Shown here in pieces: positions 8,111-35,403 of a DNA stretch of 64,000 nucleotides. The position numbers and the translations under genes are program-made. The stretch comes from Bacteroidota bacterium (GTDB lineage: Bacteria; Bacteroidota; Bacteroidia; M30B66). The notes under the pieces were generated by a model, which did not search any database, had not been told where the DNA came from, and saw only the letters and a list, made by a program, of their open reading frames with translations. Numbering within the stretch: the stretch's first letter is position 1; each line of letters starts with the position of its first letter. The stretch lies in NCBI GenBank assembly GCA_027490225.1, contig JAIXYK010000055.1, positions 1 through 64,000 of the forward strand, written 5' to 3'.

Positions 8111-8617
8111 CTAATCTGTTTGTTTCGTAAATGTATCTAATGCTTTGAGTAAAGTTGGAATTCTAAAATCTCCCTGCATTGCGCTAATATTATTGAAAGC
8201 TTCATCTAAATTCATTCCTATGGCCGTAATAAACAATGGCTTTTTACTTTCTCCGCGAAATAAGCTTTTCTTGAGCTGGTTGATTGTTGCAAAATTTGTT
8301 TTGGCAACTCCTATAATTGGGATTTTTTTGTTTAGTTTTTCGAATAAGTGAGCTCCTAAACCAAATTTACCGTCATCATCTAAATAAACAAATCCATCTA
8401 TTACTATTGCGTGAATAGAATTTAAATCAAACTTACTGAGAAGACTTAAAATACATGGCAATTCTCTTTTATAAAATTCACCCGAAACATATTGAGCTAT
8501 ATTTTCGAGTGTTTCTGTATGTACTTTATAATTGCTGGTAGTGCTCCAATCTTCGAATTCTAAACAAACGGTTTTTGCTTTATTATCGAAATAATGTGAA
8601 TCGAATGCAAGAATCAT
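8111..8617 (-). CDS. nfi: Endonuclease V (deoxyinosine 3' endonuclease)
   Basis: Endonuclease V cuts DNA, and in some lineages RNA, one base 3' of inosine as the first step of deaminated-adenine repair. At 168 residues this is a compact member compared with about 220 in E. coli. The family motifs are in order: D6 in FDSHYF, E52 in GEFYKRELP, D74 in VIDGFVYLD, GLGAH ending at H90, and GVAKT with K106. D6, E52 and D74 match the expected metal-binding catalytic residues. The gene begins 2 bp after the acetyltransferase stop, so the two form one transcription unit. The assignment rests on motif order and is strong. Whether the substrate is DNA or RNA cannot be told. Confidence 0.88.
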   Translation of the reverse strand: MILAFDSHYFDNKAKTVCLEFEDWSTTSNYKVHTETLENIAQYVSGEFYKRELPCILSLLSKFDLNSIHAIVIDGFVYLDDDGKFGLGAHLFEKLNKKIPIIGVAKTNFATINQLKKSLFRGESKKPLFITAIGMNLDEAFNNISAMQGDFRIPTLLKALDTFTKQTD

Positions 8618-9191: not shown

Positions 9192-12100
9192 TTACCTAAA
9201 CACAGTTAAAGTTCCACCTTTGGTAAACCACTGATTATTTACCCACTGCACTTCTATTACCCAACCATAAACGTCTTGCGGAACATATCGACCTTTGAAT
9301 TGTCCGTCCCAGCCATCGGTGAGTTTGTTGGATTCGAACATTACGTTTCCGTGTTTATCGTAAATCCACATTTTGAATTCTTGTATGCCTTCGCCCTTTG
9401 CCAAAAATATCTCGTTTAATCCATCTTGATTTACTGTCATGGCATTTGGCAAATACACCCTGAAAGGCTCCAATAAACAAATACTAATTTCACTTTTGTC
9501 TTCGCATCCATTGCTATCTGCAACTTCCAGCACAACTGAATACTCGCCATGGGTAATATACCCATGAAATGGATTTACACCTGATTCATACGCCAGCTCA
9601 GAACCATCTCCAAAACTCCAACTACCTTGTGTAGCTCCTGTACTTAAATCAATAAAGTTGATGTCTCTGATGTTAGATGGAATGCAATCGTTATCAGGAT
9701 TAACACTGAATTGAGATTTTACCAATGCAAAACCCGGAATGGTAACTGATGTATCGAGTTTGCAACCAGAAATTGTATCGGTGATACTTGCAGTGTAAGT
9801 ATTGGAAGCTAAACCTGGCAATGTTTCGCCTGCATTATAATTGCTTCCCCGCCATTTAATGGTGTACCCTGATTGACCAGTAGCATTCGCTACAATAAAA
9901 CCTTCTTCCCCATAACATAAAGTTTCGCTACTGGTAAATTGAACGTTAATGGGTGCTGCAACTGTAATTGAAATTGTATCTTTAATAATCGAGCAACCGT
10001 CAGTAATGAGCAAATTATAATCGGTGCTTTGTAATGGACTAACAATTTGTTGTTGTTGTTGAGGCAATAAACCATTGCTCCAGTTATAAGTTATCAAGTT
10101 GCCATTACCACCAAATGCATTTACATTAATGGCAGCAAAGTCTCCATAACAAATTGAGTCCTTAGAAACGGTTAATGTATAGCCAATACTTGGTGCAACG
10201 CGAATGGTTGCAGTATCAATACTTTGACAAAGTCCTTCTCCAACAGAATAACTCAATAAATGCTCACCCTGATTCGCCACAAAAGCATTGAAATGCAAAG
10301 AATCTACAATACCAGAGCCGCTCAGTAAGCCTCCAGCCGGTTGCAGGTCAATTGGGATTAAGCTATCAATGTAACATAATTGCCCGCCAGGCACATCAAT
10401 CTCTGCCTGAATAAATGGAATTACTTCTATTTCAACACTGTCAGTACAACCAGAAACTGATTCGTAAAAAATCTGATGAATTCCTCCACCGGCTTGGTTA
10501 GGACTAAATATCCCAAGGGCATCATCTACAATACCATTTCCCGAAAATTCGCCACCATAGGCATAACTAGGAATGTTGATAGAGAAATCTTGAGTTTCTT
10601 CGCAAATGGCTGGTTGAGTTGAAAACAAATTTTTCAAAACAATCATTACTACTGAATCGCGACAGGTATTGTTATCGTAATACACATAATTAAGCCCAGC
10701 ATTTGCTTGTGAAGGAATAAAAAAAGCACTGTCATCATCAAAAGGCTGCACCCCATTTCCTGACCAATCTCCTCCCCAAGGCGTAATGTCCATCGTTTCT
10801 CGCCAAAGCGTTAATGGATTGTCTGTAGAGCAAAATAAAACTGTATCAACTCCAATATCTGTAGTGCGAACAAATACTTTAGTTGTATCCGTACAACCAT
10901 TTGATAAAGTATAAATTAACTCAGGCTCAAAATTATTCCCTTGGTTCTCTCCCGGGTTAAACAATCCAGTTAAAGTATCAAGAATTCCAACTCCAGACCA
11001 AGTTCCTCCAGAAGGATAGTAATTTTCTAGCAAATATGGAGCTTCTGCAGGACAAGCGCTGGTATTCCAACCTGCATAAATTTCTTTTACAAATACTTCA
11101 AATTGTTGCTCGCAGCCATTCAACACATAATGAATTGTATGTAAGCCGCCATAAGCTTCTCCAGGATCGAAAATTCCGTTTAATGAGTCAACGATACCTG
11201 GCCCGCGATAACGTCCACCAGGAGGGCTCAAAATATACCTCAGCGAGGAATCGCTTTGACATAAACTATCAATAAATAAAGGAGCATTTCTGATGGTATC
11301 AACATAAACAATCTTGGTATCGCTACAGCCATTAAATGTGTATGTAACGGCATACTCTCCAATTGTATCGGGCGAGAGAATTCCAGATGACGTAACGCTG
11401 CTGCCGCTCCAGGTCCCTCCAGCCGGCGACTGACCAATGAGTTGAAAAGGCGAAGACCCCGGACAAGCTGCCTGAGGCAAACCTGCATCGATGGGTAAAA
11501 TTGTAATTACAACAGTTGAAGTGCATCCGAAAGTTGAAGAAATAGGAAGATAATATCCAATTACATTTGCTCCAGTATTGGCAGAATCTCCATTAAAAGT
11601 TCCAGCATCTGCATCTGTTATACCCGAACCAAACCAAGTGCCGCCTGCAGGAGTAGCAACTAAATCAAATGGAATTGCATTTTGACACTGAGTGCTGCTT
11701 GCAGGAACTACTGCTGGGGTAAAAACATTAACCGTAACTGAACCAGATGCTGGCGCTGCAGGTGAAGTATCATCAACGGTTAAGGTATATGTTGTATTTG
11801 CTAAAGGTGAAACTGTTTGAGGTCCTGCTGTGGGGGGCAATCCATTGCTCCATGAATAAGTGTAAATCCCGTTACCTCCTGTAACTTCTGCAATAATTTC
11901 TGTTGAACTTCCTTCACAAATACTATCATTCTCGGCTATAAGTGTCACTACAATTGGGCAATCATCTACCCTAAAAGAATCTACAGTTATAAAAGTCCAT
12001 AAACTGTCACAAGCATCATAAAAATTAGTTGTTAAAGCCAATTCATAAACGCCACCTGCATCTAAACCAGGGCTAAAAGTAAGCTGTGCTTGGTTGGTAC

Positions 12101-12707
12101 TATCATGTAAACAGCCAACAGGTGTTGCTGAAACAACTTGTTGATCTAATACACCTAAGAATGAGAATGCGCCTGCATAAATTGAATCACATTTTATATA
12201 CCTGCTTAAATTTACAATTGCAGTGCTGCTCGAACATGCAGGTGCTGGCAAAATTGCATCAATTTGAGGTGGAACCGGAGGTATAACCTCTGTTGTCCAG
12301 CTAGCTTCCCAACCTGTGCAAGCAGCATTAGCATCAGAACCAAAATGCATAGATAAACAACCTGAAGATATTGTGATTGGAGGCGGAGGAATAAGCCCCC
12401 AATAAGCTGGGCCAACTTGAGGAGAAAACTCATCAGGTCCTAAATGAAAAGTTAATGAATCTAATAAGGTTTCAACACAAAATGATTCAAATGTAATGGT
12501 TAAAAATCCCGGAGCATCTAAACAAATTGTAAAAGTTTGGTTGCTATTGTGAAAATAGTTTTCTCCATCGCCTCCGTTGTCATATAAAATACCTTTGCAT
12601 TCAGTAACTGTAGTATCGCTAAAATTAAATTCTAACTGTGCAGTTGCAGTAACAACTACCAAGCTGCAGATTAATGAAAACAGATATTTCAGACCATTAA
12701 CCTTCAT
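9192..12707 (-). CDS. Large T9SS type B surface protein with CUB-like domain and seven GGxWxGxGI repeats
   Basis: A 1171-residue exported protein. The signal peptide ends near ATA-QLEF (residue 24). Residues about 30-140 look like a CUB domain (ILYDNGGDGENYF, FTICLDAPGFLTITF, late GWEASW). Next comes a SprB-type stretch (SICEGSSTEI, YSWSNGLPP). Seven diverged copies of a 70-80-residue unit follow, with signature G-G-x-W-x-G-x-G-I, G-x-F-x-P, G, I-x-Y, G-C-x-D. After a second SprB-like stretch, a PKD-like domain (SWSFGDGSE) covers about 1005-1080. Residues about 1084-1171 (VYLPNAMTVNQDGLNE, then KHGNVMFES, DGWDGQF, GGTLTVFR) are the gliding-associated T9SS type B sorting domain. It is the last gene of the operon, overlapping the previous gene by ATGA. 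An adhesin or structural surface role is likely. Confidence 0.88.
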   Translation of the reverse strand: MKVNGLKYLFSLICSLVVVTATAQLEFNFSDTTVTECKGILYDNGGDGENYFHNSNQTFTICLDAPGFLTITFESFCVETLLDSLTFHLGPDEFSPQVGPAYWGLIPPPPITISSGCLSMHFGSDANAACTGWEASWTTEVIPPVPPQIDAILPAPACSSSTAIVNLSRYIKCDSIYAGAFSFLGVLDQQVVSATPVGCLHDSTNQAQLTFSPGLDAGGVYELALTTNFYDACDSLWTFITVDSFRVDDCPIVVTLIAENDSICEGSSTEIIAEVTGGNGIYTYSWSNGLPPTAGPQTVSPLANTTYTLTVDDTSPAAPASGSVTVNVFTPAVVPASSTQCQNAIPFDLVATPAGGTWFGSGITDADAGTFNGDSANTGANVIGYYLPISSTFGCTSTVVITILPIDAGLPQAACPGSSPFQLIGQSPAGGTWSGSSVTSSGILSPDTIGEYAVTYTFNGCSDTKIVYVDTIRNAPLFIDSLCQSDSSLRYILSPPGGRYRGPGIVDSLNGIFDPGEAYGGLHTIHYVLNGCEQQFEVFVKEIYAGWNTSACPAEAPYLLENYYPSGGTWSGVGILDTLTGLFNPGENQGNNFEPELIYTLSNGCTDTTKVFVRTTDIGVDTVLFCSTDNPLTLWRETMDITPWGGDWSGNGVQPFDDDSAFFIPSQANAGLNYVYYDNNTCRDSVVMIVLKNLFSTQPAICEETQDFSINIPSYAYGGEFSGNGIVDDALGIFSPNQAGGGIHQIFYESVSGCTDSVEIEVIPFIQAEIDVPGGQLCYIDSLIPIDLQPAGGLLSGSGIVDSLHFNAFVANQGEHLLSYSVGEGLCQSIDTATIRVAPSIGYTLTVSKDSICYGDFAAINVNAFGGNGNLITYNWSNGLLPQQQQQIVSPLQSTDYNLLITDGCSIIKDTISITVAAPINVQFTSSETLCYGEEGFIVANATGQSGYTIKWRGSNYNAGETLPGLASNTYTASITDTISGCKLDTSVTIPGFALVKSQFSVNPDNDCIPSNIRDINFIDLSTGATQGSWSFGDGSELAYESGVNPFHGYITHGEYSVVLEVADSNGCEDKSEISICLLEPFRVYLPNAMTVNQDGLNEIFLAKGEGIQEFKMWIYDKHGNVMFESNKLTDGWDGQFKGRYVPQDVYGWVIEVQWVNNQWFTKGGTLTVFR

Positions 12708-13180
12708 TCTGCTTTTATAACTACTGGGTCGGTTGTAACTTCATTGCTCCACTTTCCGGCTTGGTCGCGTAACTTGATGGTAAATGTTACGGTTTCAAAT
12801 TGTCCGTTACCCAATAAGAACAAAGTATTGAGTTTAATGCGTAATTTGCCTCTAATAAAAAGAGAATAACCAGCAGGAGTCAAAGGTTTTACATGATAAT
12901 AATCAGGAGTATTTAAACGGCTATCTTTTACTTCAATGTCTTGACCATCAGGATCTGCACTTCCAATATCTCCGTTTGGATCTTCGTATTGAATTTCAAC
13001 AAAAACAGAATCTGTAAACTGTTTCACAGAATCTGGCCCTATTGAAATTACTCCAATAACCGGTGCTTTCTCTTCTGCTATTTCTTCTTCTTTTTTACAG
13101 GATGATGAAAATGCAGAAACTCCCAGAAGCATTGCTCCTATTAAACCTTTTAGGTTATTTTTTATGTAGATGGCTATCAT
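12704..13180 (-). CDS. Small lipoprotein of unknown function
   Basis: A 158-residue protein with a lipoprotein signal: hydrophobic core GLIGAMLLGVSAF, then SSSC with the lipid-modified Cys at 28, followed by KKEEE. The mature part carries an IQYEDPNGDIGSADPDGQD segment that resembles a Ca-binding or Ig-like turn. It ends with TIKLRDQAGKWSNEVTT, typical of an Ig-like fold in surface proteins. I do not recognise a named family. It overlaps its upstream and downstream neighbours by ATGA, so translation in this operon is probably coupled. The Lys/Glu residues after Cys are common in lipoproteins of this phylum. Confidence 0.75.
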   Translation of the reverse strand: MIAIYIKNNLKGLIGAMLLGVSAFSSSCKKEEEIAEEKAPVIGVISIGPDSVKQFTDSVFVEIQYEDPNGDIGSADPDGQDIEVKDSRLNTPDYYHVKPLTPAGYSLFIRGKLRIKLNTLFLLGNGQFETVTFTIKLRDQAGKWSNEVTTDPVVIKAE

Positions 13181-14118
13181 TCTCCTTTTTGAAATGAATA
13201 GTATCTTTTGATGTGTTCCGCGCTAGATGTAGTAGGTATTTCTGTTAGGGTTGGTAAATTATCTTGTAAGTAAGCCCTAATAAACTGAGCCTGACCTAAA
13301 GGTAAGCTTCCTACTGAAACACTAAACTTATGTGTAAATTGAATTTGATTACCAGAATATCCTTCCCCAGTTATTGGAGTTATTGAAGATAAGCTGATTT
13401 CAGTTAAACCACCAAAAATGTTCATTGATGGTCCTGTTTTTACTTTTAGGTATGAAATATCATTTACAGGAGTTTGGTCGTCGGTAAATGCTAAGTAAAT
13501 GTCAATAGAAGTCGCATTTGCAGGGACCTGCACACTTCCACTTTGAATATTCCTTGGTAAAGCTGTATTGCTTCCTGTTTCGGTTATCAAAATACCAGTT
13601 AATTGGGGCGGCAAATTGGTGCCTACTGGCGAATTTCCAAAAACATCTTTGGCTCCATTAATTATCCAGTTTCTAACATTTTCGATATACCCGACTTTTT
13701 TTGCTTCCCAATCTGAGCCTGGACTCAATCCTAAGGGCATAATTCCCGAAAGGCCATCAATATCTACAGTTACCCTATTCATTAAAACACTGGCATTGGC
13801 ATCTCCAGGTTTTACACGGTATTGAAAACTTCCTGCTACATCATTTTTTATTACTGGCTTTAGCACTAATGTGTTGTAAGCGCTTTCCACTGTCCTAAAA
13901 TCTGGCTCAAAGGTGCCATCGTGGCAACCTGAATTAGCGCAAGTAGGTTTAAAAATGTTCTTATGCAATCCTGCGAATGAATTAGCATCAATTGTAACGA
14001 CAGTATTGTTTGTAACTGGCGGTTGATTTTCAGGCAAATCAAAAGGATTAATTTTTTCTTCTTTTTTACACCCAAAAGTCAAGACCAATAAAGAAAATAT
14101 GAATAATAGCCCCTTCAT
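13177..14118 (-). CDS. Lipoprotein with CX4CH haem-like motif
   Basis: A 313-residue lipoprotein (signal peptide LLFIFSLLVLTFGC, lipidated C17). Residues 50-66 read LHKNIFKPTC-ANSG-CH. They place two cysteines and a histidine as C60-x4-C65-H66, a spaced version of the c-type haem motif. M127 in SGIMPLG lies where small cytochromes c often have their axial Met (MPP/MPxG). The remaining two thirds, from PQLTGILITETGS onward, looks like an Ig-like or beta-sandwich domain. CX4CH is rare for covalent haem, so this is either an unusual surface cytochrome or a disulphide-bonded relative. Its operon partners include a DUF1501-type protein, and in Planctomycetes such proteins neighbour cytochrome-like domains. 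Confidence 0.75.
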   Translation of the reverse strand: MKGLLFIFSLLVLTFGCKKEEKINPFDLPENQPPVTNNTVVTIDANSFAGLHKNIFKPTCANSGCHDGTFEPDFRTVESAYNTLVLKPVIKNDVAGSFQYRVKPGDANASVLMNRVTVDIDGLSGIMPLGLSPGSDWEAKKVGYIENVRNWIINGAKDVFGNSPVGTNLPPQLTGILITETGSNTALPRNIQSGSVQVPANATSIDIYLAFTDDQTPVNDISYLKVKTGPSMNIFGGLTEISLSSITPITGEGYSGNQIQFTHKFSVSVGSLPLGQAQFIRAYLQDNLPTLTEIPTTSSAEHIKRYYSFQKGE

Positions 14119-15458
14119 ATTCTGTCGAATAAACTTACAGACTCAGGTTGTAAGAAACCTGCACCCATTATTTCATCTTTAACTCCTAAAATTTCTCCAA
14201 TCGTAGGTACATTGTCTGAAGTAAACCCTACAGGATTGGCTTCATTTCCAATACTGAGATTTTGAGGAACTCCAGGACCTGCCATTACAGTAAATACGCG
14301 TGAAGCATTATTATCAGAATGGTCATACGCATACCAATCGTTCACATCTTTTATAGGATTGTGATTTAGATTTCTGCCACATTCAGGTGAAGCAATCAAT
14401 ACTGTATCTCCTGCCATTTCTGGAATTTGGGTTTGAATGTAATTCCATAAATGTCCAACAGCATGATCTGCCCTGTGCAATGCACGTAAATAACCAGTAA
14501 AGTCTGCATGACAACCATCTACGCTGCTTAAGTTTACTACTGTAATTGCAGGTTTAAACCAACGCATAATTTCACAAGCAAATCCAATATTCAATGCATC
14601 ATTGTTTTCGGTAATGGTTGGGAATGGAATTGCGTTTTGTGTAACACGGTCGTAGGTTGAACGCATAAACGATTTAATGTCTTGCTTTTCATCTTCCGTA
14701 TTTCCTAAAGAATCGCCTCCTTTACCAACATTCGCAAAACTTTGGTCAAGAAAATACTTCATTTGATACATTGGATCCAATTCATTTTCAGGATGATAAA
14801 CCTTAGCATTACTCAAATGCTCAAAACCTAAATTGCCAAAAGTGATAGATGGCGCAAAAAAGTTAGCACCATACTGCGAACCATAATTTGGATGATTGCT
14901 ATAATTCAACAATGGCAAACCATTACCAATTCCATTTCCTACAAACCAAACTTTGGACGCTGGAAAACCACCATGTCTGCGCAAATATTCAAAAATTGTA
15001 GGGTTAATTGGCTTTTGTTTTAAGCCTTGCGTAGTTACTTGGCTGCCTTGGAGCAGGTTATTTAATCCCCCAAAATGTCCAGCTGACTGTGCCTGCACTT
15101 CTCGAAAAACTGTACCCTGTGTTTCTAAAGTTTGACTAAGAATTTGCGGAATGGGTGTGCCTCCTTCTACCCCATTTCCTTGGTTGGTTCCATAAACAAT
15201 TTTATTCTCAGGACTTGGTCCATTAAACATATTGTACATGATGTTTCCTGCCCATGGAAAACCCTGAGAATCGTCTAAATAACGTTGTAAAATACTTTCT
15301 TGTTGACGCACACCTCCAGCAAACAACACATACACCACATGCCCTGCAAGTTGTCGACCGGTAGCTGCAAACAGCCTTCCTGAAGGTAAAATATAAGGTA
15401 CCGCAAAAGCTCCAGCTCCGGCAATTCCTGCATTTCTTATGAATTTTCTACGGTTCAT
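14115..15458 (-). CDS. DUF1501-type secreted protein (alkaline-phosphatase-like fold)
   Basis: About 447 residues. An open frame extends to a TTG at 15491, but the ATG at 15458 is chosen: it gives MNRRKFIRNAGIAGAGAF, a twin-Arg-like export signal, and starts 1 nt after the upstream stop. The middle and C-terminus (FACEIMRWFKPAITVVNLSSVDGCHADF, DTVLIASPECGRN, DHSDNNASRVFTVMAGPGV, VPTIGEILGV) match the pattern of the DUF1501/sulfatase-like family known from Planctomycetes and Bacteroidota. Its biochemical activity is unknown. It follows two lipoproteins and overlaps the CX4CH lipoprotein by ATGA. Confidence in family is good, in function low. Confidence 0.82.
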   Translation of the reverse strand: MNRRKFIRNAGIAGAGAFAVPYILPSGRLFAATGRQLAGHVVYVLFAGGVRQQESILQRYLDDSQGFPWAGNIMYNMFNGPSPENKIVYGTNQGNGVEGGTPIPQILSQTLETQGTVFREVQAQSAGHFGGLNNLLQGSQVTTQGLKQKPINPTIFEYLRRHGGFPASKVWFVGNGIGNGLPLLNYSNHPNYGSQYGANFFAPSITFGNLGFEHLSNAKVYHPENELDPMYQMKYFLDQSFANVGKGGDSLGNTEDEKQDIKSFMRSTYDRVTQNAIPFPTITENNDALNIGFACEIMRWFKPAITVVNLSSVDGCHADFTGYLRALHRADHAVGHLWNYIQTQIPEMAGDTVLIASPECGRNLNHNPIKDVNDWYAYDHSDNNASRVFTVMAGPGVPQNLSIGNEANPVGFTSDNVPTIGEILGVKDEIMGAGFLQPESVSLFDRI

Positions 15459-15459
15459 C

Positions 15460-15954
15460 TTAATAGTATAAGTATTCGTTAGAAAGGGCAAAAGCGAAAT
15501 ATATCATTTCGGCACTTAACTGGGGATTTGCTTCAATAAAATTGCGAAACCAAGTTTTTTCCGCTTCTGAAGGTTTTCGCACAAAAAAACGCTCATACGT
15601 TTGTTCTGTAAATACATCCGGATTAGCACGCATTACACTGTCAGATGGCAATACAACTTGCGGATCATTCATAAAATTAGAAATCAGCACTTCTCTGCCC
15701 AATTCTTTGTCTCCAATAGATTCTAAACAGTCTATTATTTCAACCAATTGATTACCAGATAATGCTCTTTGAAACAAATTGGTATATAATATTGAAACAT
15801 ACTGTTCCTGTGTTTTATTCTTATTTTTTGCTCCAATAGATGGATACAATTTCACAGGATTTACTTCATATTGATCTTGTGCTACATCTTTTTTACATGC
15901 GGCAAATGATAAAATGAGCAGTCCCAGAAAAAAAGCTATTATCTTATTTTTCAT
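15460..15954 (-). CDS. Lipoprotein with Y-x-x-L-x-x-R / SNEY motif module
   Basis: A 164-residue lipoprotein (AFFLGLLILSFAAC, lipidated C20, then KKD). The mature part contains EQYVSILYTNLFQRAL, then YERFFVRKPSEAEKTWF, and ends with FALSNEYLYY. The next gene upstream contains the same type of module and also ends in a SNEY sequence, so the two are probably distant relatives. The pattern (Tyr..Leu..Arg.P...E, closing S.EY) recalls DUF4214-type linker repeats or the DUF1549 family, but I cannot choose between them. The 5-bp gap to the upstream gene and 1-bp gap to the DUF1501 gene indicate one operon. Confidence 0.75.
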   Translation of the reverse strand: MKNKIIAFFLGLLILSFAACKKDVAQDQYEVNPVKLYPSIGAKNKNKTQEQYVSILYTNLFQRALSGNQLVEIIDCLESIGDKELGREVLISNFMNDPQVVLPSDSVMRANPDVFTEQTYERFFVRKPSEAEKTWFRNFIEANPQLSAEMIYFAFALSNEYLYY

Positions 15955-15959
15955 TTTGC

Positions 15960-16901
15960 TTAAAAATTAGCGTATTCATTAGAAATCAATATCCTTTTTT
16001 GCAAGGCTTTTACATCTTTATTAGTTGAAAATAAAAGCAATTCTGTGCTCATTTCCAATGAACTTGGGTCACGTGCAAGCAGTGTTTTATACATCCAAAT
16101 GATGATTCCCTGCGTGCATTCGTTTGTGTTGGAAACAATTTGTACAAACTCGTCTTTATTTTGGCCTGATTGACCAAAAAGTTCTCCCGGTACATTGTCC
16201 TCTACCATACTAAAGCTTGTTTGAAACTCAGCTTGTGTGGGGAACCTAAAGAACAAATCATCATAACACGCATTTACAAAATTAAATGTGTTCATATTGA
16301 TGATGTCATAAATACTGTTGTTGCACATGTGTCCGCACATTTGTGTGATGGTGATAGTGCCATTTTGATAATTTGCCCGGGAATTTAATACAGCTAACAT
16401 TTTATTATAAGCTTGCATGTTTTCTTCGTATCCTGCAATATTTCCAGCCAAAGAATCGCTGAAAGCATCACTTTTAATGATGTTGGCCTCTCCAATTAGT
16501 TCATCTTCTGCAATGCCTTCGAGAAATCTTATTTTTCCCAATTCATACAAACGTTTATGATATGCCAATGTATAAGATGTATCGCCTTCTCTAAAAATTG
16601 CATCAGTCATTAACTTGTTTATAAGCGCCTCTCTTGCAGCTACAGATACATTTGAAGCTTGAAGTGAAGCTGTTTCTGCATTCATTTCGATATCGAGTGG
16701 CTCTCGACCTAGTAAATCAATAAATAGTCTGTTTACGTAATTACGAACCTTAACGGAAGGTATTTTTGAGTAATACGGTGAATCGTTGTCGGGAATTACT
16801 TCGACCCCATCTTTCTTGCAGGCTGCTAAAAAGCATAAAATGAGTATTCCGAAAATGGAATTTTGAAGCTTCAACAAATCTTTGATTTTTATGATAGCCA
16901 A
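15960..16901 (-). CDS. Lipoprotein, first gene of the DUF1501 operon (DUF1549/DUF4214-like motifs)
   Basis: About 313 residues; lipoprotein signal SIFGILILCFLAAC with lipidated C28 in this numbering. No ATG is available: the frame closes with a stop 15 bp upstream of the TTG at 16901. The start is therefore TTG, either 16901 or one of the two TTG codons at residues 9-10. The mature part begins YVNRLFIDLLGREP, like the opening of planctomycete DUF1549 proteins. Later modules are CYDDLFFRFPTQAEF and WMYKTLLARDPSSLEM, and the end is ISNEYANF. It shares the module with the 164-residue lipoprotein 5 bp downstream. Function unknown; a surface complex with its operon partners is inference. Confidence 0.72.
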   Translation of the reverse strand: MAIIKIKDLLKLQNSIFGILILCFLAACKKDGVEVIPDNDSPYYSKIPSVKVRNYVNRLFIDLLGREPLDIEMNAETASLQASNVSVAAREALINKLMTDAIFREGDTSYTLAYHKRLYELGKIRFLEGIAEDELIGEANIIKSDAFSDSLAGNIAGYEENMQAYNKMLAVLNSRANYQNGTITITQMCGHMCNNSIYDIINMNTFNFVNACYDDLFFRFPTQAEFQTSFSMVEDNVPGELFGQSGQNKDEFVQIVSNTNECTQGIIIWMYKTLLARDPSSLEMSTELLLFSTNKDVKALQKRILISNEYANF

Positions 16902-16953: not shown

Positions 16954-17715
16954 CTATTCGTGTTCTATCCTAAAGTAGAACCCTGATGCTAAAAATGCTG
17001 GCAAAACGTTCGCTATTTTTTGGTCAATTTTAGCAATTGTTTTTAAAGGTATGAATGGTAAATAAGTCTCAATGATAGGTGCGAGAAAATAGGCTTTTTT
17101 AATTTCTGTAATCTTCAATTTGTATTGTTTCAATTCTCTTCTCAATCGACCAATAGTAAAAAAGTTTACATGTGGCGTTTCATAATTTTGAGAATATGGC
17201 TCCTTTTTGCCTAATAAAGCTTTCACCTTTAATATAAAATTGTTTAAGCCCATTTTACGCATTAAATACAAGGGCTGCATTGCTATTTCAAAGGGACCAA
17301 AACCATTTGGAATGGTGATAAGCAACTTCATATTTTTATCAGAATGCTTTCCCAGATAATCTAAAATTTCATGGTAAGGACCAATATGCTCCAATACTTC
17401 TGTTAAGATGATGTATTCTTTTCCTTTGAGAGGAGAATCTTGCAAATACTCAAATTTAAAACGCACATTAGGCAGTGTATTTGCGGCAATCGCAATGTCT
17501 AAAGTTGGTTGATGAAGGTCAATTCCTAAAATATCTGCATCAGGAATGGTTCCTAGAGGAATGGTAATGTTTCCTGTACCTGCCCCAACATCAAGCACTT
17601 CAGCACTTGTTCCATTTTTATGACCATTTTCAATTGTATCGTATAACCATTCTAATCTACTTAAATGGCAAGGATATTCAGTGTATTGTGTATATTTTAA
17701 TGCTTCGGCTCTCAT
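16954..17715 (-). CDS. SAM-dependent class I methyltransferase
   Basis: A 253-residue protein with a Rossmann methyltransferase core. Motif I is EVLDVGAGTGNI (residues 39-50), an acidic strand end follows in LGIDLH, motif post-I/IV is TEVLEHI (about 105-111), and LITIPNGFGP follows. This is the Methyltransf_11/23 pattern, often seen in small-molecule, lipid or glycan methylation. The C-terminal third (YLMRKMGLNNFILKVKALLG onward) may bind the substrate. Its ATG overlaps the stop of the 2OG oxygenase gene (TAATG), so the two are translationally coupled. Substrate unknown. Confidence 0.85.
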   Translation of the reverse strand: MRAEALKYTQYTEYPCHLSRLEWLYDTIENGHKNGTSAEVLDVGAGTGNITIPLGTIPDADILGIDLHQPTLDIAIAANTLPNVRFKFEYLQDSPLKGKEYIILTEVLEHIGPYHEILDYLGKHSDKNMKLLITIPNGFGPFEIAMQPLYLMRKMGLNNFILKVKALLGKKEPYSQNYETPHVNFFTIGRLRRELKQYKLKITEIKKAYFLAPIIETYLPFIPLKTIAKIDQKIANVLPAFLASGFYFRIEHE

Positions 17716-18503
17716 TATATTTTAATTCCCGCTTTTTTAAAAATGCGTTTAATGTTATTTTTCAACGTTTCTTTCACATCTGTTTTTACCTTTTTCATCA
17801 AACCTTCTTCTGGTCTTGCTTTAAAAACAGTATCATGATATCCTGCTGCTCCTTCTCTCAAATCTGTGTAATAATAACCGTAAAAGGATTTTCTATGAAC
17901 TCCTTCTGGTACTGTTATTTTGCCGTAACCATGATAAGAAATTTCACTGGTTTCAAAAATTACGCAACGGTTAAATGAAGGCAAATAAAACTTCTCCAGC
18001 TTACTTACATCTTTGTTCCATAGCTCTAAAAGTCCACCAAATTCTTCTTTCCAATCTTTATTCATAAAAATAAGCAGATTTACCCTTCTATGAATATTTC
18101 TATCGTAATGAATATTGAAATCAATATGAATATCTAAAAAACTTCCATTAGAACCTTGATGAACGCCCATTCCTAAAGCATCATTTACTGAATATAAATT
18201 GTCAATTCCAGTAATTCCGCTTAATGCCTTATAAAATTCAGGAGTGTTTAATGCAGCTTTCAGTTCTGTAAATGCAGGATGAAAATTTTCAAAACCAGCA
18301 CCTTCAGATTTATGTTCATTTAACCCTTGGTAATTTCTGCTCATTTTATCAAGACCAGGGAAATTACCTTCTATAGTTTCTGCAAACTCGGGCGAAAGAA
18401 AATTATCAATCTTTATGTGTTTGTATGGACTTGCAGTTTCAAATTGCTTGTTGAGTTCCTTAATATTGCTTTCTTCGAAAAAAGAGGCTGGAATAATTTG
18501 CAT
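17715..18503 (-). CDS. 2OG-Fe(II) oxygenase (prolyl-4-hydroxylase-like)
   Basis: A 262-residue protein with the facial triad of the 2-oxoglutarate/Fe(II) dioxygenases: H126-x-D128 in DIHIDFN and H191 in SYHGYGK. R204 in VHRKSFYGY is the likely 2-oxoglutarate-binding Arg. The strand RRVNLLIFMNKDW and the segment EFGGLLELWNKD are typical of the 2OG-FeII_Oxy_3 group. It probably hydroxylates a small molecule, sugar or protein side chain. It overlaps the methyltransferase gene by one base (TAATG) and starts 21 bp after the Lrp/AsnC regulator gene. The three may form one regulated modification unit. Substrate unknown. Confidence 0.85.
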   Translation of the reverse strand: MQIIPASFFEESNIKELNKQFETASPYKHIKIDNFLSPEFAETIEGNFPGLDKMSRNYQGLNEHKSEGAGFENFHPAFTELKAALNTPEFYKALSGITGIDNLYSVNDALGMGVHQGSNGSFLDIHIDFNIHYDRNIHRRVNLLIFMNKDWKEEFGGLLELWNKDVSKLEKFYLPSFNRCVIFETSEISYHGYGKITVPEGVHRKSFYGYYYTDLREGAAGYHDTVFKARPEEGLMKKVKTDVKETLKNNIKRIFKKAGIKI

Positions 18504-31557: not shown

Positions 31558-34500
31558 ATGAAAACTCGAATTATAGCAATCTCACTCCTATTAATTAGCT
31601 CATCAATAGATGCCAGGGAAATTATAGGAAAAAACGGAGGCAAAGTGGCTTCCAATGCTAACGGCAGCAATTCAAAAGTTGCAGCATCTTGTAAGCCTGG
31701 TGCGGGAAGAACTGACTTAGACATCAATAATGTAAGAACTACTATTTTTACTTCAGGTGATATGTGGTGGGATTTAAATAGCAACCCACGTTATGAAATA
31801 CCAAAAATTGCAACAGGAAGCTCGGAAACAAGAAAGCACTCTTCATTTGCTGGGTCACTATGGATTGGGGGAGTTGATGATGGGGGAAGTTTAAAAGTGG
31901 CTGCAATGACTTATCGCCAAAGCGGTAACGATTTTTGGCCAGGCCCTTTAAAAATAGCAGATGCTTCTGTTACGGCTGATGTTTGTTTAGCTTATGACCA
32001 ACACTGGAAAATTACCAGAAAAGAAGTGGAAGACTTCGTTATTGGTGGCCTTGCCCCTACTGAAGTAATTCAATCTTGGCCAGGAAATGGAATTGTAAAC
32101 GGAGGAGATGAATTTACAGGATTTGCTTCTCAATTGGCTCCTTACGTGGACGTTGATGATGACGGAATTTACAATCCGGATAATGGAGATTATCCTGGTT
32201 ATGATGTTACTGGAGATTTAGGATGTGATGCTAAATTATTTGGTGACCAAACTATTTGGTGGGTATTCAATGATAAAGGAAATGTGCATTCAGAATTTGG
32301 TGGATTTCCCCTAGGTGTAGAAATTAGAGCGCAGGCATTTGCTTTTGCAACTAATAACTCACTAAATAATATGACTTTCTATAACTATGAAATCATTAAC
32401 CGTTCAGATATTGCTGTAAATGAAACTTATGTGGGCGTTTGGACAGATTCAGATATCGGAAATTACATAGATGACTATGTTGGTTGTGATGTTGGAAGAG
32501 GTTTAGGTATTGCATTTAACGGTGACGCTGATGATGAAACTAACAATGGTTATGGTTTAAATCCACCTGCTTTTGGAATTGACTTTTTTGAAGGTCCGTT
32601 TATGGATGCTGATTCTACTGATAACAGTAACGACCCTTGCTTGGAGCCAAAAGCATATAACGGTTTAGGTTTCGGAGATACGATTGTTGATAACGAACGA
32701 ATAGGTATGTCTAAATTTGTTTACTACAACAACACAAGCGACTTAAGAGGAAATCCTGATAACTATTTGCACATATACAATTATCTGAGAGGTCGTTGGA
32801 AAGATGGTACTCCTATGGTATACGGCGGAGATGGTTATGGTTCAGGACAAGCTACTAACTTTATGTTTCCTGGTAATACTGACCCACTTGGTATTGGTCA
32901 AATTGCAAATGGTAATACAACTTGTTTGCCTCAAGCGCCATGGAGCGAAGAAACTGTAGGTAATGAGCCAGGTGATAGAAGATTTGTGCAATCAGCAGGA
33001 CCGATAACATTAGAAGCAGGAGCTGTAAATACAGTAACTATAGGTGCAGTTTGGGCTAGGGCTTCTTCTGGAGGTCAATTGGCTTCAGTTGAATTGGTTA
33101 AAGTTGCCGATGATGATGCGCAAGCACTATTTGATAATTGTTTTGGAATTTTAAATGGTCCCGATGCGCCAGTGGTTAATGCTGTAGAGCTTGATAAAGA
33201 AGTAATTCTTAACTTAGTAAGTACTGGTAACGATAAAGTTGTCCAATATTCAGAAGTAACAACTGTTCCTGGTTACGGAGATGTAACTTACAATTTTCAA
33301 GGTTATTTAATTTACCAATTAAAATCACCAAATGTTACAGTTAGTGATAGAAAAGACCCAAACCTAGCAAGATTAATTTTCCAATGTGACTTGCGTGATA
33401 CGGTTGATCAGTTAATAAATAAAACCTTTGATTTGAACTTAAATGCTGAAATTCCAGTTGAAGAAGTTAATGGAGAAAATAAAGGAATACGCAATTCATT
33501 CAGAGTTACAACAGACGCGTTTGCAACAGGTAATAACAAGTTAGTAAATCATAAACAATACTACTTTATGGTTCTTTCATATGCAGTTTCACAAGGAACA
33601 CCTGCAGATTTCGATGAGCCATTTTTTGCTGGCAGAAGAACTTATGGAGCTTCAGCAGTTCAAGTTTATACAACTATTCCACATATTAACTCACCTGAAC
33701 AAAGTGGAATGAGTGTTCAATCAGCTTATGGTGATAAGCCAATTGTAACAAGAATTGAAGGTTATGGTAATGGAGGAAACAACATCGATTTATCCGATGA
33801 AACAATTAACAAGATTCTTGCACCTCCATATTGGGCAAAAGAAATAGTTTACCAGAAAAACAAAGCTCCTATTAACGTAAAGGTTATTGATCCCTTAAAA
33901 ATTCCTTTAGGAGATTTCGAATTTAAATTTGAAGGCCTAGCTGATACAAGTAAATGGGTACTAAAATATGGAGATGCTGTTTACCGATCTATATATGGAC
34001 TTGCAAATCCTATAGAGCAAGTAATAAGCGATTTTGGTTTCTCTGTTACCGTTGGACAAGTTCCTTTACCTGGCGACAATCCTACTGAAGGTAATGGTTT
34101 TGTAACTGCATCCTCTACATTCCAAGACAACACAAAAAGATGGATTACATTTTTAGCTGATGCTGAAGGTTCTGAAGAACCAAGAAATTGGATCAGAGCT
34201 GGTGTTGCAACCTTTCCTGCTACTGTTTTACCAGCTGGAACATGGAACGATTATCCAGGTATAGATGACGTTAGTGCTTATGAAAAAGTATTAGGCGGTA
34301 CTTGGGCTCCATATCCATTGGTTTCAAGATTTGCTGATGGACCTAGCTACACAACTTCAGCGAATATTCAAACTTTAGGCAATCTTAGAAAAATACCAGG
34401 CATTGACGTTGTTTTTACAGCTGATCAATCAAAATGGTCTCGTTGCCCAGTTTTCGAAACTACTGACGATAATGATTATTCAGTTGGGGGTGCTAATAAA

Positions 34501-35403
34501 TTGACTTTACGTGCTTCACCTTCAGTTGGAAAGAATGGTCAGCCTGATGGCGATGGTTTAGGTATGGGTTGGTTTCCAGGTTATGCAATTAATGTTGAAA
34601 CTGGTGAAAGACTAAACATTGCTTTTGGTGAATCTTCTAGATTAACTCAAGACAATGGGAGAGATATGCTTTTCAATCCATCTTCTAGAACAGTAGCTTT
34701 TGACAATGGTCAATTACAAGCTTATTTGGGAGGTAAACATTTTATTTATGTGTTTAATCACGTAGGAGATGATGTTGACGAGATGCCACGCTATGATGAA
34801 GGTGCATTTATTCGCAATAGATTTGCAACTGCGCCAGCAGCAACTGCTCAAAGAAATATTTTTCAAGCCTGTGCTTGGGTAAGTATTCCATTAGGAGTTG
34901 CGAACCAACCTTTCTTAACTAATGATTTAAACGTAAAAATTAGGGTACAAAGACCTTATGTTAAAAATTATAATGCTGTAGATTCTGCTGATGGTAGTGC
35001 AGCTGTTAACAATAACTTCCCTATTTACACTTTCAATACTGCTGGAGTTGCTCCAATTAGAGAAAGTAACGAATTAGCTAAAAATGCACTGGATTTAATT
35101 AATGTCGTTCCTAATCCTTATTATGCTTTCTCAGCTTATGAAACAGGACAGCTAGACAATCGTGTTAAAATTACTAATCTGCCTAAAGTTTGTAAAATTA
35201 ATATTTACACAACAGGAGGAATATTAGTAAGAACATTCAGCAAAGACAGTGAAAAAACTTCTTTAGATTGGGATTTAAAAAATCAATCAAACATCACAAT
35301 ATCGAGTGGAGTTTATATCATACATGTTCAAGCAGATGGAATAGGCGAAAAAGTAGTGAAGTGGTTTGGTGTTATGCGTCCTATAGATTTAGATTCCTTC
35401 TAA
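31558..35403 (+). CDS. Large secreted protein with T9SS type A-like C-terminus
   Basis: A 1281-residue protein. The signal peptide is MKTRIIAISLLLISSSIDA. The mature protein starts with DLDINNVRTTIFTSGDMWWD and SLWIGGVDDGG, LKVAAMTYRQSGNDFWPGPL. I recall this opening from uncharacterised large Bacteroidota proteins but know no function. Aspartate-rich loops (VDDDGIYNPDNGDYPGYD, DADSTDNSNDP) suggest Ca binding. The last 100 residues (VPNPYYAFSAYETG, KINIYTTGGILVRTF, SSGVYIIHV, EKVVKWFGVMRP) look like a T9SS type A sorting domain with an unusual tail (PIDLDSF). It lies 29 bp after the receptor gene and 21 bp before the PorV-like gene. Confidence 0.85.
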   Translation: MKTRIIAISLLLISSSIDAREIIGKNGGKVASNANGSNSKVAASCKPGAGRTDLDINNVRTTIFTSGDMWWDLNSNPRYEIPKIATGSSETRKHSSFAGSLWIGGVDDGGSLKVAAMTYRQSGNDFWPGPLKIADASVTADVCLAYDQHWKITRKEVEDFVIGGLAPTEVIQSWPGNGIVNGGDEFTGFASQLAPYVDVDDDGIYNPDNGDYPGYDVTGDLGCDAKLFGDQTIWWVFNDKGNVHSEFGGFPLGVEIRAQAFAFATNNSLNNMTFYNYEIINRSDIAVNETYVGVWTDSDIGNYIDDYVGCDVGRGLGIAFNGDADDETNNGYGLNPPAFGIDFFEGPFMDADSTDNSNDPCLEPKAYNGLGFGDTIVDNERIGMSKFVYYNNTSDLRGNPDNYLHIYNYLRGRWKDGTPMVYGGDGYGSGQATNFMFPGNTDPLGIGQIANGNTTCLPQAPWSEETVGNEPGDRRFVQSAGPITLEAGAVNTVTIGAVWARASSGGQLASVELVKVADDDAQALFDNCFGILNGPDAPVVNAVELDKEVILNLVSTGNDKVVQYSEVTTVPGYGDVTYNFQGYLIYQLKSPNVTVSDRKDPNLARLIFQCDLRDTVDQLINKTFDLNLNAEIPVEEVNGENKGIRNSFRVTTDAFATGNNKLVNHKQYYFMVLSYAVSQGTPADFDEPFFAGRRTYGASAVQVYTTIPHINSPEQSGMSVQSAYGDKPIVTRIEGYGNGGNNIDLSDETINKILAPPYWAKEIVYQKNKAPINVKVIDPLKIPLGDFEFKFEGLADTSKWVLKYGDAVYRSIYGLANPIEQVISDFGFSVTVGQVPLPGDNPTEGNGFVTASSTFQDNTKRWITFLADAEGSEEPRNWIRAGVATFPATVLPAGTWNDYPGIDDVSAYEKVLGGTWAPYPLVSRFADGPSYTTSANIQTLGNLRKIPGIDVVFTADQSKWSRCPVFETTDDNDYSVGGANKLTLRASPSVGKNGQPDGDGLGMGWFPGYAINVETGERLNIAFGESSRLTQDNGRDMLFNPSSRTVAFDNGQLQAYLGGKHFIYVFNHVGDDVDEMPRYDEGAFIRNRFATAPAATAQRNIFQACAWVSIPLGVANQPFLTNDLNVKIRVQRPYVKNYNAVDSADGSAAVNNNFPIYTFNTAGVAPIRESNELAKNALDLINVVPNPYYAFSAYETGQLDNRVKITNLPKVCKINIYTTGGILVRTFSKDSEKTSLDWDLKNQSNITISSGVYIIHVQADGIGEKVVKWFGVMRPIDLDSF

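Follow-up and report, generated by a model that had tools for sequence, protein, structure and literature searches.

Five adjacent genes, A to E, in the window analysed here (a 64,000-nucleotide stretch of Bacteroidota DNA) very probably form one conserved cell-envelope unit of DUF1501/PSCyt1-like type. The cassette is a new form of the PSCyt/DUF1501-like modules, a kind already known though uncharacterised, and our profile comparisons indicate that A-E is in part the Bacteroidota counterpart of those modules, split into separate proteins.

The original prediction described six minus-strand genes with gaps of 5 bp and 1 bp followed by three ATGA overlaps, and the open reading frame list confirms both this arrangement and the positions (Table 1). 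A and B are separated by 5 bp, B and C by 1 bp when the ATG start of C is used, and 4-bp ATGA overlaps are found at C-D, D-E and E-F. The same order is found again at almost all related loci, which argues that the arrangement is more than chance; promoter and terminator scans returned fewer sites than in shuffled sequence. Judged by predicted signals, all six proteins look to be exported. Lipoprotein or Tat-type signals had been ascribed to four genes; the kinds of signal hold, and their number is five of six (lipoprotein signals in A, B, D and E, a Tat-type signal in C), with a signal-peptide-like stretch at the start of F as well. No aligned homologue lacks the lipobox cysteine (27/27 for A, 27/27 for B, 24/24 for D and 35/35 for E), and the source genome encodes the machinery that these proteins would require (SprA, TatC and proteins for cytochrome c assembly).

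Table 1. Genes of the A-F cassette, with positions in the window and predicted features of their products.
Gene	Position	Strand	Length and start	Predicted features
A	15960-16901	minus	313 aa; TTG start, true start uncertain	Lipoprotein; all-helical; DUF4214/phycobilisome-linker-like repeat stretches; SNEY at C-terminus
B	15460-15954	minus	164 aa	Lipoprotein; DUF4214-like; SNEY at C-terminus
C	14115-15458	minus	Start taken as ATG of MNRRKF; ORF listed from TTG at 15491	Tat-type export signal; far-diverged DUF1501 relative with motifs of alkaline phosphatase superfamily type
D	13177-14118	minus		Lipoprotein; predicted monohaem c-type cytochrome domain, then Ig-like domain
E	12704-13180	minus	158 aa	Small lipoprotein; no family match in Pfam or NCBIfam; within conserved core
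F	9192-12707	minus	1171 aa	CUB-like start, repeats, PKD, type B T9SS C-terminal domain

Conservation of the cassette was assessed with C as a query in 198 relatives, which gave matches in 75 genomes; these fall into groups of about 50-83% and about 35-45% identity, plus shorter, weaker matches. When 40 regions and 80 named loci were scored with profiles of A-F, the order A-B-C-D-E(-F) was found in 107 of the 119 loci with C, drawn from two overlapping locus sets that merge to 105 distinct C sequences, and the expectation of a conserved gene order is thus borne out. All six genes stand in order in 89 loci, some having extra F-like ORFs, and A-B-C-D-E without F in 18; most of the other 12 run into contig edges. 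The lower-identity group constitutes a second type of cassette: F is missing from all 15 of the type II loci fetched, whereas type I is defined by its presence. Both types occur in the source genome: the window carries type I, and just beyond it on the same contig (G000:C52, about 85060-89150; L053, 7061-11149) a second, paralogous A-E cassette without F, of type II, lies between a gene for an M20-type peptidase and one for a lipoprotein. In each of the five gene trees, built from A, B, C, D and E, the two types part with support of 0.999-1.0, so the core A-E was duplicated as a block.

There are exceptions to the pattern. In L121, C lies on a contig without A, B, D or E nearby, and in L042 the cassette is without A and F. 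A shortened C stands alone at the type II place in L069 (7627-8724) and L070 (8047-9060), with its Tat-type signal and motifs kept, indicating that C is able to exist without the remaining cassette genes; neither A nor a clear D was found anywhere in these two genomes, which are 100% and 99% complete. We counted this joint absence for the A-E unit; the lone C genes, the two exceptions above and the failure of C to reach family cut-offs were counted against it. Among the named records with the cassette, uncultured Flavobacteriales and MAGs of other Bacteroidota predominate, although some record titles look doubtful (Chitinophaga or Chryseobacterium for lake MAGs). The reach of the cassette is limited: in a phylum-wide sample of 247 well-assembled genomes, 2 carry full-length C and 28 carry PSCyt2, with no genome carrying both, numbers too small to claim exclusion.

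C begins with RRKFIR, a twin-arginine-type signal, and profile comparison indicates that it is a far-diverged relative of DUF1501. The window protein reaches no cut-off in Pfam or NCBIfam, that of DUF1501 (PF07394) included, and DUF1501 is detected at E<=0.1 in 3 of 27 family members (best 0.0032). Aligned against an alignment of 25 proteins found with PF07394, the C family gave E 1.2e-9 (hhalign 96.4%), the match spanning 120 columns in the C-terminal half. The DUF1501-type motif set (GG near the N-terminus, D-x-x-H, E-x-G-R, D-H) is present in C, where the motifs AGG[VI]R, GH..G, D..H, PE.GRN and DH are kept in 101-104 of 105 homologues, and motifs of the same kind can be read in the source genome's canonical DUF1501 (SGGND, FDTH, SEFGR, TDHG). 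Searching solved structures with the sequence of C yielded nothing useful. Other Bacteroidota have short homologues of about 360 aa, which were weighed as orthologues of C and rejected; we take them as a separate family of phosphatase/sulfatase type, since the one that was read out (L216) has FDG and DHGR in contrast to the AGG and PE-GR of C, and the neighbours also differ.

For the paired lipoproteins A and B, which end in SNEYANF and SNEYLYY, similarity to DUF1549/DUF4214-type proteins had been anticipated. Both resemble DUF4214 while staying below its cut-off: window A scores 17.2 bits and window B 23.1, the cut-off for PF13946 being 23.2, and the family is detected at E<=0.1 in 21 of 27 A members (best 4e-7) and 18 of 27 B members. 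The DUF1549 part is moderate for A and hardly holds for B. With signal peptides removed, A gave hhalign 59% (E 9.4e-5, 46 columns) against the start of PSCyt2/DUF1549, and B gave 14% against the PSC comparison alignment (30 Bacteroidota proteins found with PF07583). Window A has no Pfam match above cut-off to PSCyt2/DUF1549 or PSD1/DUF1553, and at E<=0.1 these are detected in 5 (best 0.0046) and 4 (best 2.9e-4) of 27 A members. A and B resemble each other at 94%, or 61% (E 8e-5) without signal peptides, and under the same treatment the C-terminal third of A matches DUF1800 at 81% (E 1.2e-5). The best VIA matches to the A model (pLDDT 92) are phycobilisome linkers (Z 9.9, rmsd 2.4, 117 residues), a Z below the tool's advised level for helical proteins and within the range of common helical arrangements; Foldseek gave prob 1.00 for several linkers, but E-values of 0.14-0.4. 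Unlike phycobilisome linkers (PF00427), A and B are lipoproteins outside any phycobilisome, and a common fold does not show a common function. Apparent links of A to D (hhalign 83%) and of E to D (91%) fell to 0.3% and 0.7% once signal peptides were removed and were rejected.

D is likely a haem lipoprotein, as its motif and its relation to PSCyt1 suggest. Unlike the usual haem motif, C-X-X-C-H, window D has C-X4-C-H (PTCANSGCHDG); the latter is present in 102 of 102 D homologues and the former in none, and a downstream Met-Pro context is kept in 99. Against the PSCyt1 part of PSCyt1-PSCyt2-PSD1 proteins D gave hhalign 96.1% (E 3.2e-9). Removing signal peptides left this at 92.2% (E 5.9e-7) and brought unrelated pairs below 1%. 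No Pfam cytochrome family, PF07635 included, was detected among 24 D members at E<=0.1. Compared with solved structures by Foldseek and VIA, the D model listed no cytochrome; matches to the Ig-like domain took up the lists, and we therefore do not treat this absence as counter-evidence. A third D-like match in the source genome (L227; G000:C23:40272-40700) is weak (E 1.4e-4).

Elsewhere among Bacteroidota, a PSCyt1-PSCyt2-PSD1 protein is encoded beside a canonical DUF1501 gene. Set against this module, PSCyt1-PSCyt2(DUF1549)-PSD1(DUF1553) plus DUF1501, D resembles PSCyt1, C resembles DUF1501 and A moderately resembles the start of PSCyt2. In contrast to the known module, the cassette uses separate lipoproteins, contains neither PSCyt2 nor PSD1 as a full domain, and has C-X4-C-H instead of the usual haem motif, while B, E and F are additional; no PSCyt2 was found in the source genome. 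The original prediction of a Bacteroidota analogue of the planctomycete module is accordingly upheld by profile-profile comparison for C and D, in part for A and hardly for B. A DUF1800-DUF1501 pair likewise places a Tat-type DUF1501 relative beside a helical partner, although the pair as published (PMC5122149) includes neither a haem gene nor lipoprotein linkers nor a T9SS protein, and cassette C is far from canonical DUF1501. A canonical DUF1501 gene with an upstream DUF1800-looking partner is present in the source genome too (L152, G000:C56). PSCyt function has been given as unknown (PMC5615132), and our search of the literature on DUF1501, PSCyt and PSD1 found no function. Carbohydrate-binding domains have been noted in PSCyt genes and sulfatase genes close to them (PMC5615132), DUF1800-DUF1501 genes lie beside bacterial chitin synthases (PMC5122149), and in Rhodopirellula baltica PSD1 and PSCyt2 each occur 41 times (PMC2754498).

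Because many Bacteroidota, most of them uncultured, share this gene order, the six proteins probably cooperate in the cell envelope. We propose that Tat-exported C would be a hydrolase-like subunit with a metal site, that D may be a lipid-anchored monohaem cytochrome passing electrons to or from C, that A and B may be lipid-anchored, linker-like scaffolds keeping C and D together, and that E could be a small lipoprotein in an accessory role. Where F is present, in type I, it would be a T9SS-secreted surface protein on which, or next to which, the unit acts. The sequences themselves show the gene order, the export signals, the family relations of C and D, the DUF4214-type repeats of A and B and the block duplication; we infer that haem and metal are bound, that a complex forms and sits at the surface, and what its substrate and chemistry would be. 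A unit with these haem and scaffold roles, the substrate set aside, is on balance probable. The target may be a surface polysaccharide, and the published contexts of PSCyt (PMC5615132) and DUF1800-DUF1501 (PMC5122149) genes, together with the motifs, are consistent with an envelope redox/hydrolase unit acting on it. Our confidence in this substrate is low, and a redox role on polysaccharide is a tentative and rather doubtful proposal. An anti-phage role was considered and rejected, there being no PADLOC match.

The close association of the cassette with F admits another explanation, namely that A-E is a dedicated maturation or surface-attachment apparatus that folds, modifies or anchors this protein. 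The type B sorting domain originally assigned to F is confirmed (CHU_C, Pfam E 1e-11; NCBIfam TIGR04131 above cut-off), and with this C-terminal domain, and SprA in the genome, F has the features of a type B T9SS cargo protein. F directly follows E in type I loci across families, with an ATGA overlap, as such an apparatus would lead one to expect. We nevertheless regard the explanation as unlikely, since A-E is kept in type II loci that lack F; shorter T9SS type B proteins do occur near the type II cassette in the source genome and some relatives, but they lie on the opposite strand and do not accompany all type II loci. F is an add-on of the type I cassette, outside the core, and the central place first given to the 1171-residue protein is not supported, given its absence from all type II cassettes fetched.

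Two further alternatives turn on D. If D were a surface electron carrier scaffolded by C, A and B, the cassette would be an extracellular electron-transfer or metal-oxidation unit, in keeping with a weak match of the D profile to the cytochrome FoxE (E 0.017, neither of two stretches being significant alone) and with the C-X-K-(D/E)2 surface-export signal defined in Capnocytophaga (PMC5080379), which D (CKKEE) and E (CKKEEE) fit and A (CKKDG) and B (CKKDV) do not. These fits were taken without a background count and are weak evidence, and the single haem motif, the weakness of the FoxE match, the lack of a multihaem partner or porin in the operon and the hydrolase-like motifs kept in C make such a unit very improbable. 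Alternatively, C-X4-C-H could bind another metal or form a disulfide in a structural cassette. The departure from the usual haem motif and the lack of a Pfam cytochrome match or listed cytochrome fold for D would fit, yet the relation to PSCyt1, the invariant Cys, Cys and His with the conserved Met-Pro, and the cytochrome c assembly genes in the source genome speak against it, leaving this alternative at least as improbable as the electron-transfer unit. The DUF1501/PSCyt1-like envelope unit remains our preferred reading.

A bolder extension of that reading is that the cassette exemplifies a new class of cell-envelope redox machine, in which linker-fold lipoproteins would join a C-X4-C-H cytochrome to a DUF1501-type enzyme and a surface polymer would be modified by a novel chemistry; DUF1800, DUF1549/1553 and A/B would then all be versions of a single general DUF1501 partner. 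We consider this quite unlikely as a whole. The cassette hints that the helical DUF1501 partners (DUF1549/1553, DUF1800, A/B) may have a linker-like element in common. The splitting into short genes, the block duplication and the reductions to C alone serve as natural experiments on which parts belong together. The separate proteins are also short enough to be expressed singly. Planctomycete cytochrome domains number dozens in some genomes.

Elsewhere in the window, a methyltransferase and 2OG-Fe(II) oxygenase pair lies just upstream of the cassette (16954-18503); it stands beside the cassette in close relatives only and was rejected as a functional clue. A 1281-aa protein (31558-35403), without a Pfam match at 1e-5, is encoded directly after a TonB-dependent receptor-like gene, and a short endonuclease V-like protein of 168 aa (Pfam E 4.4e-7) is encoded at 8111-8617.
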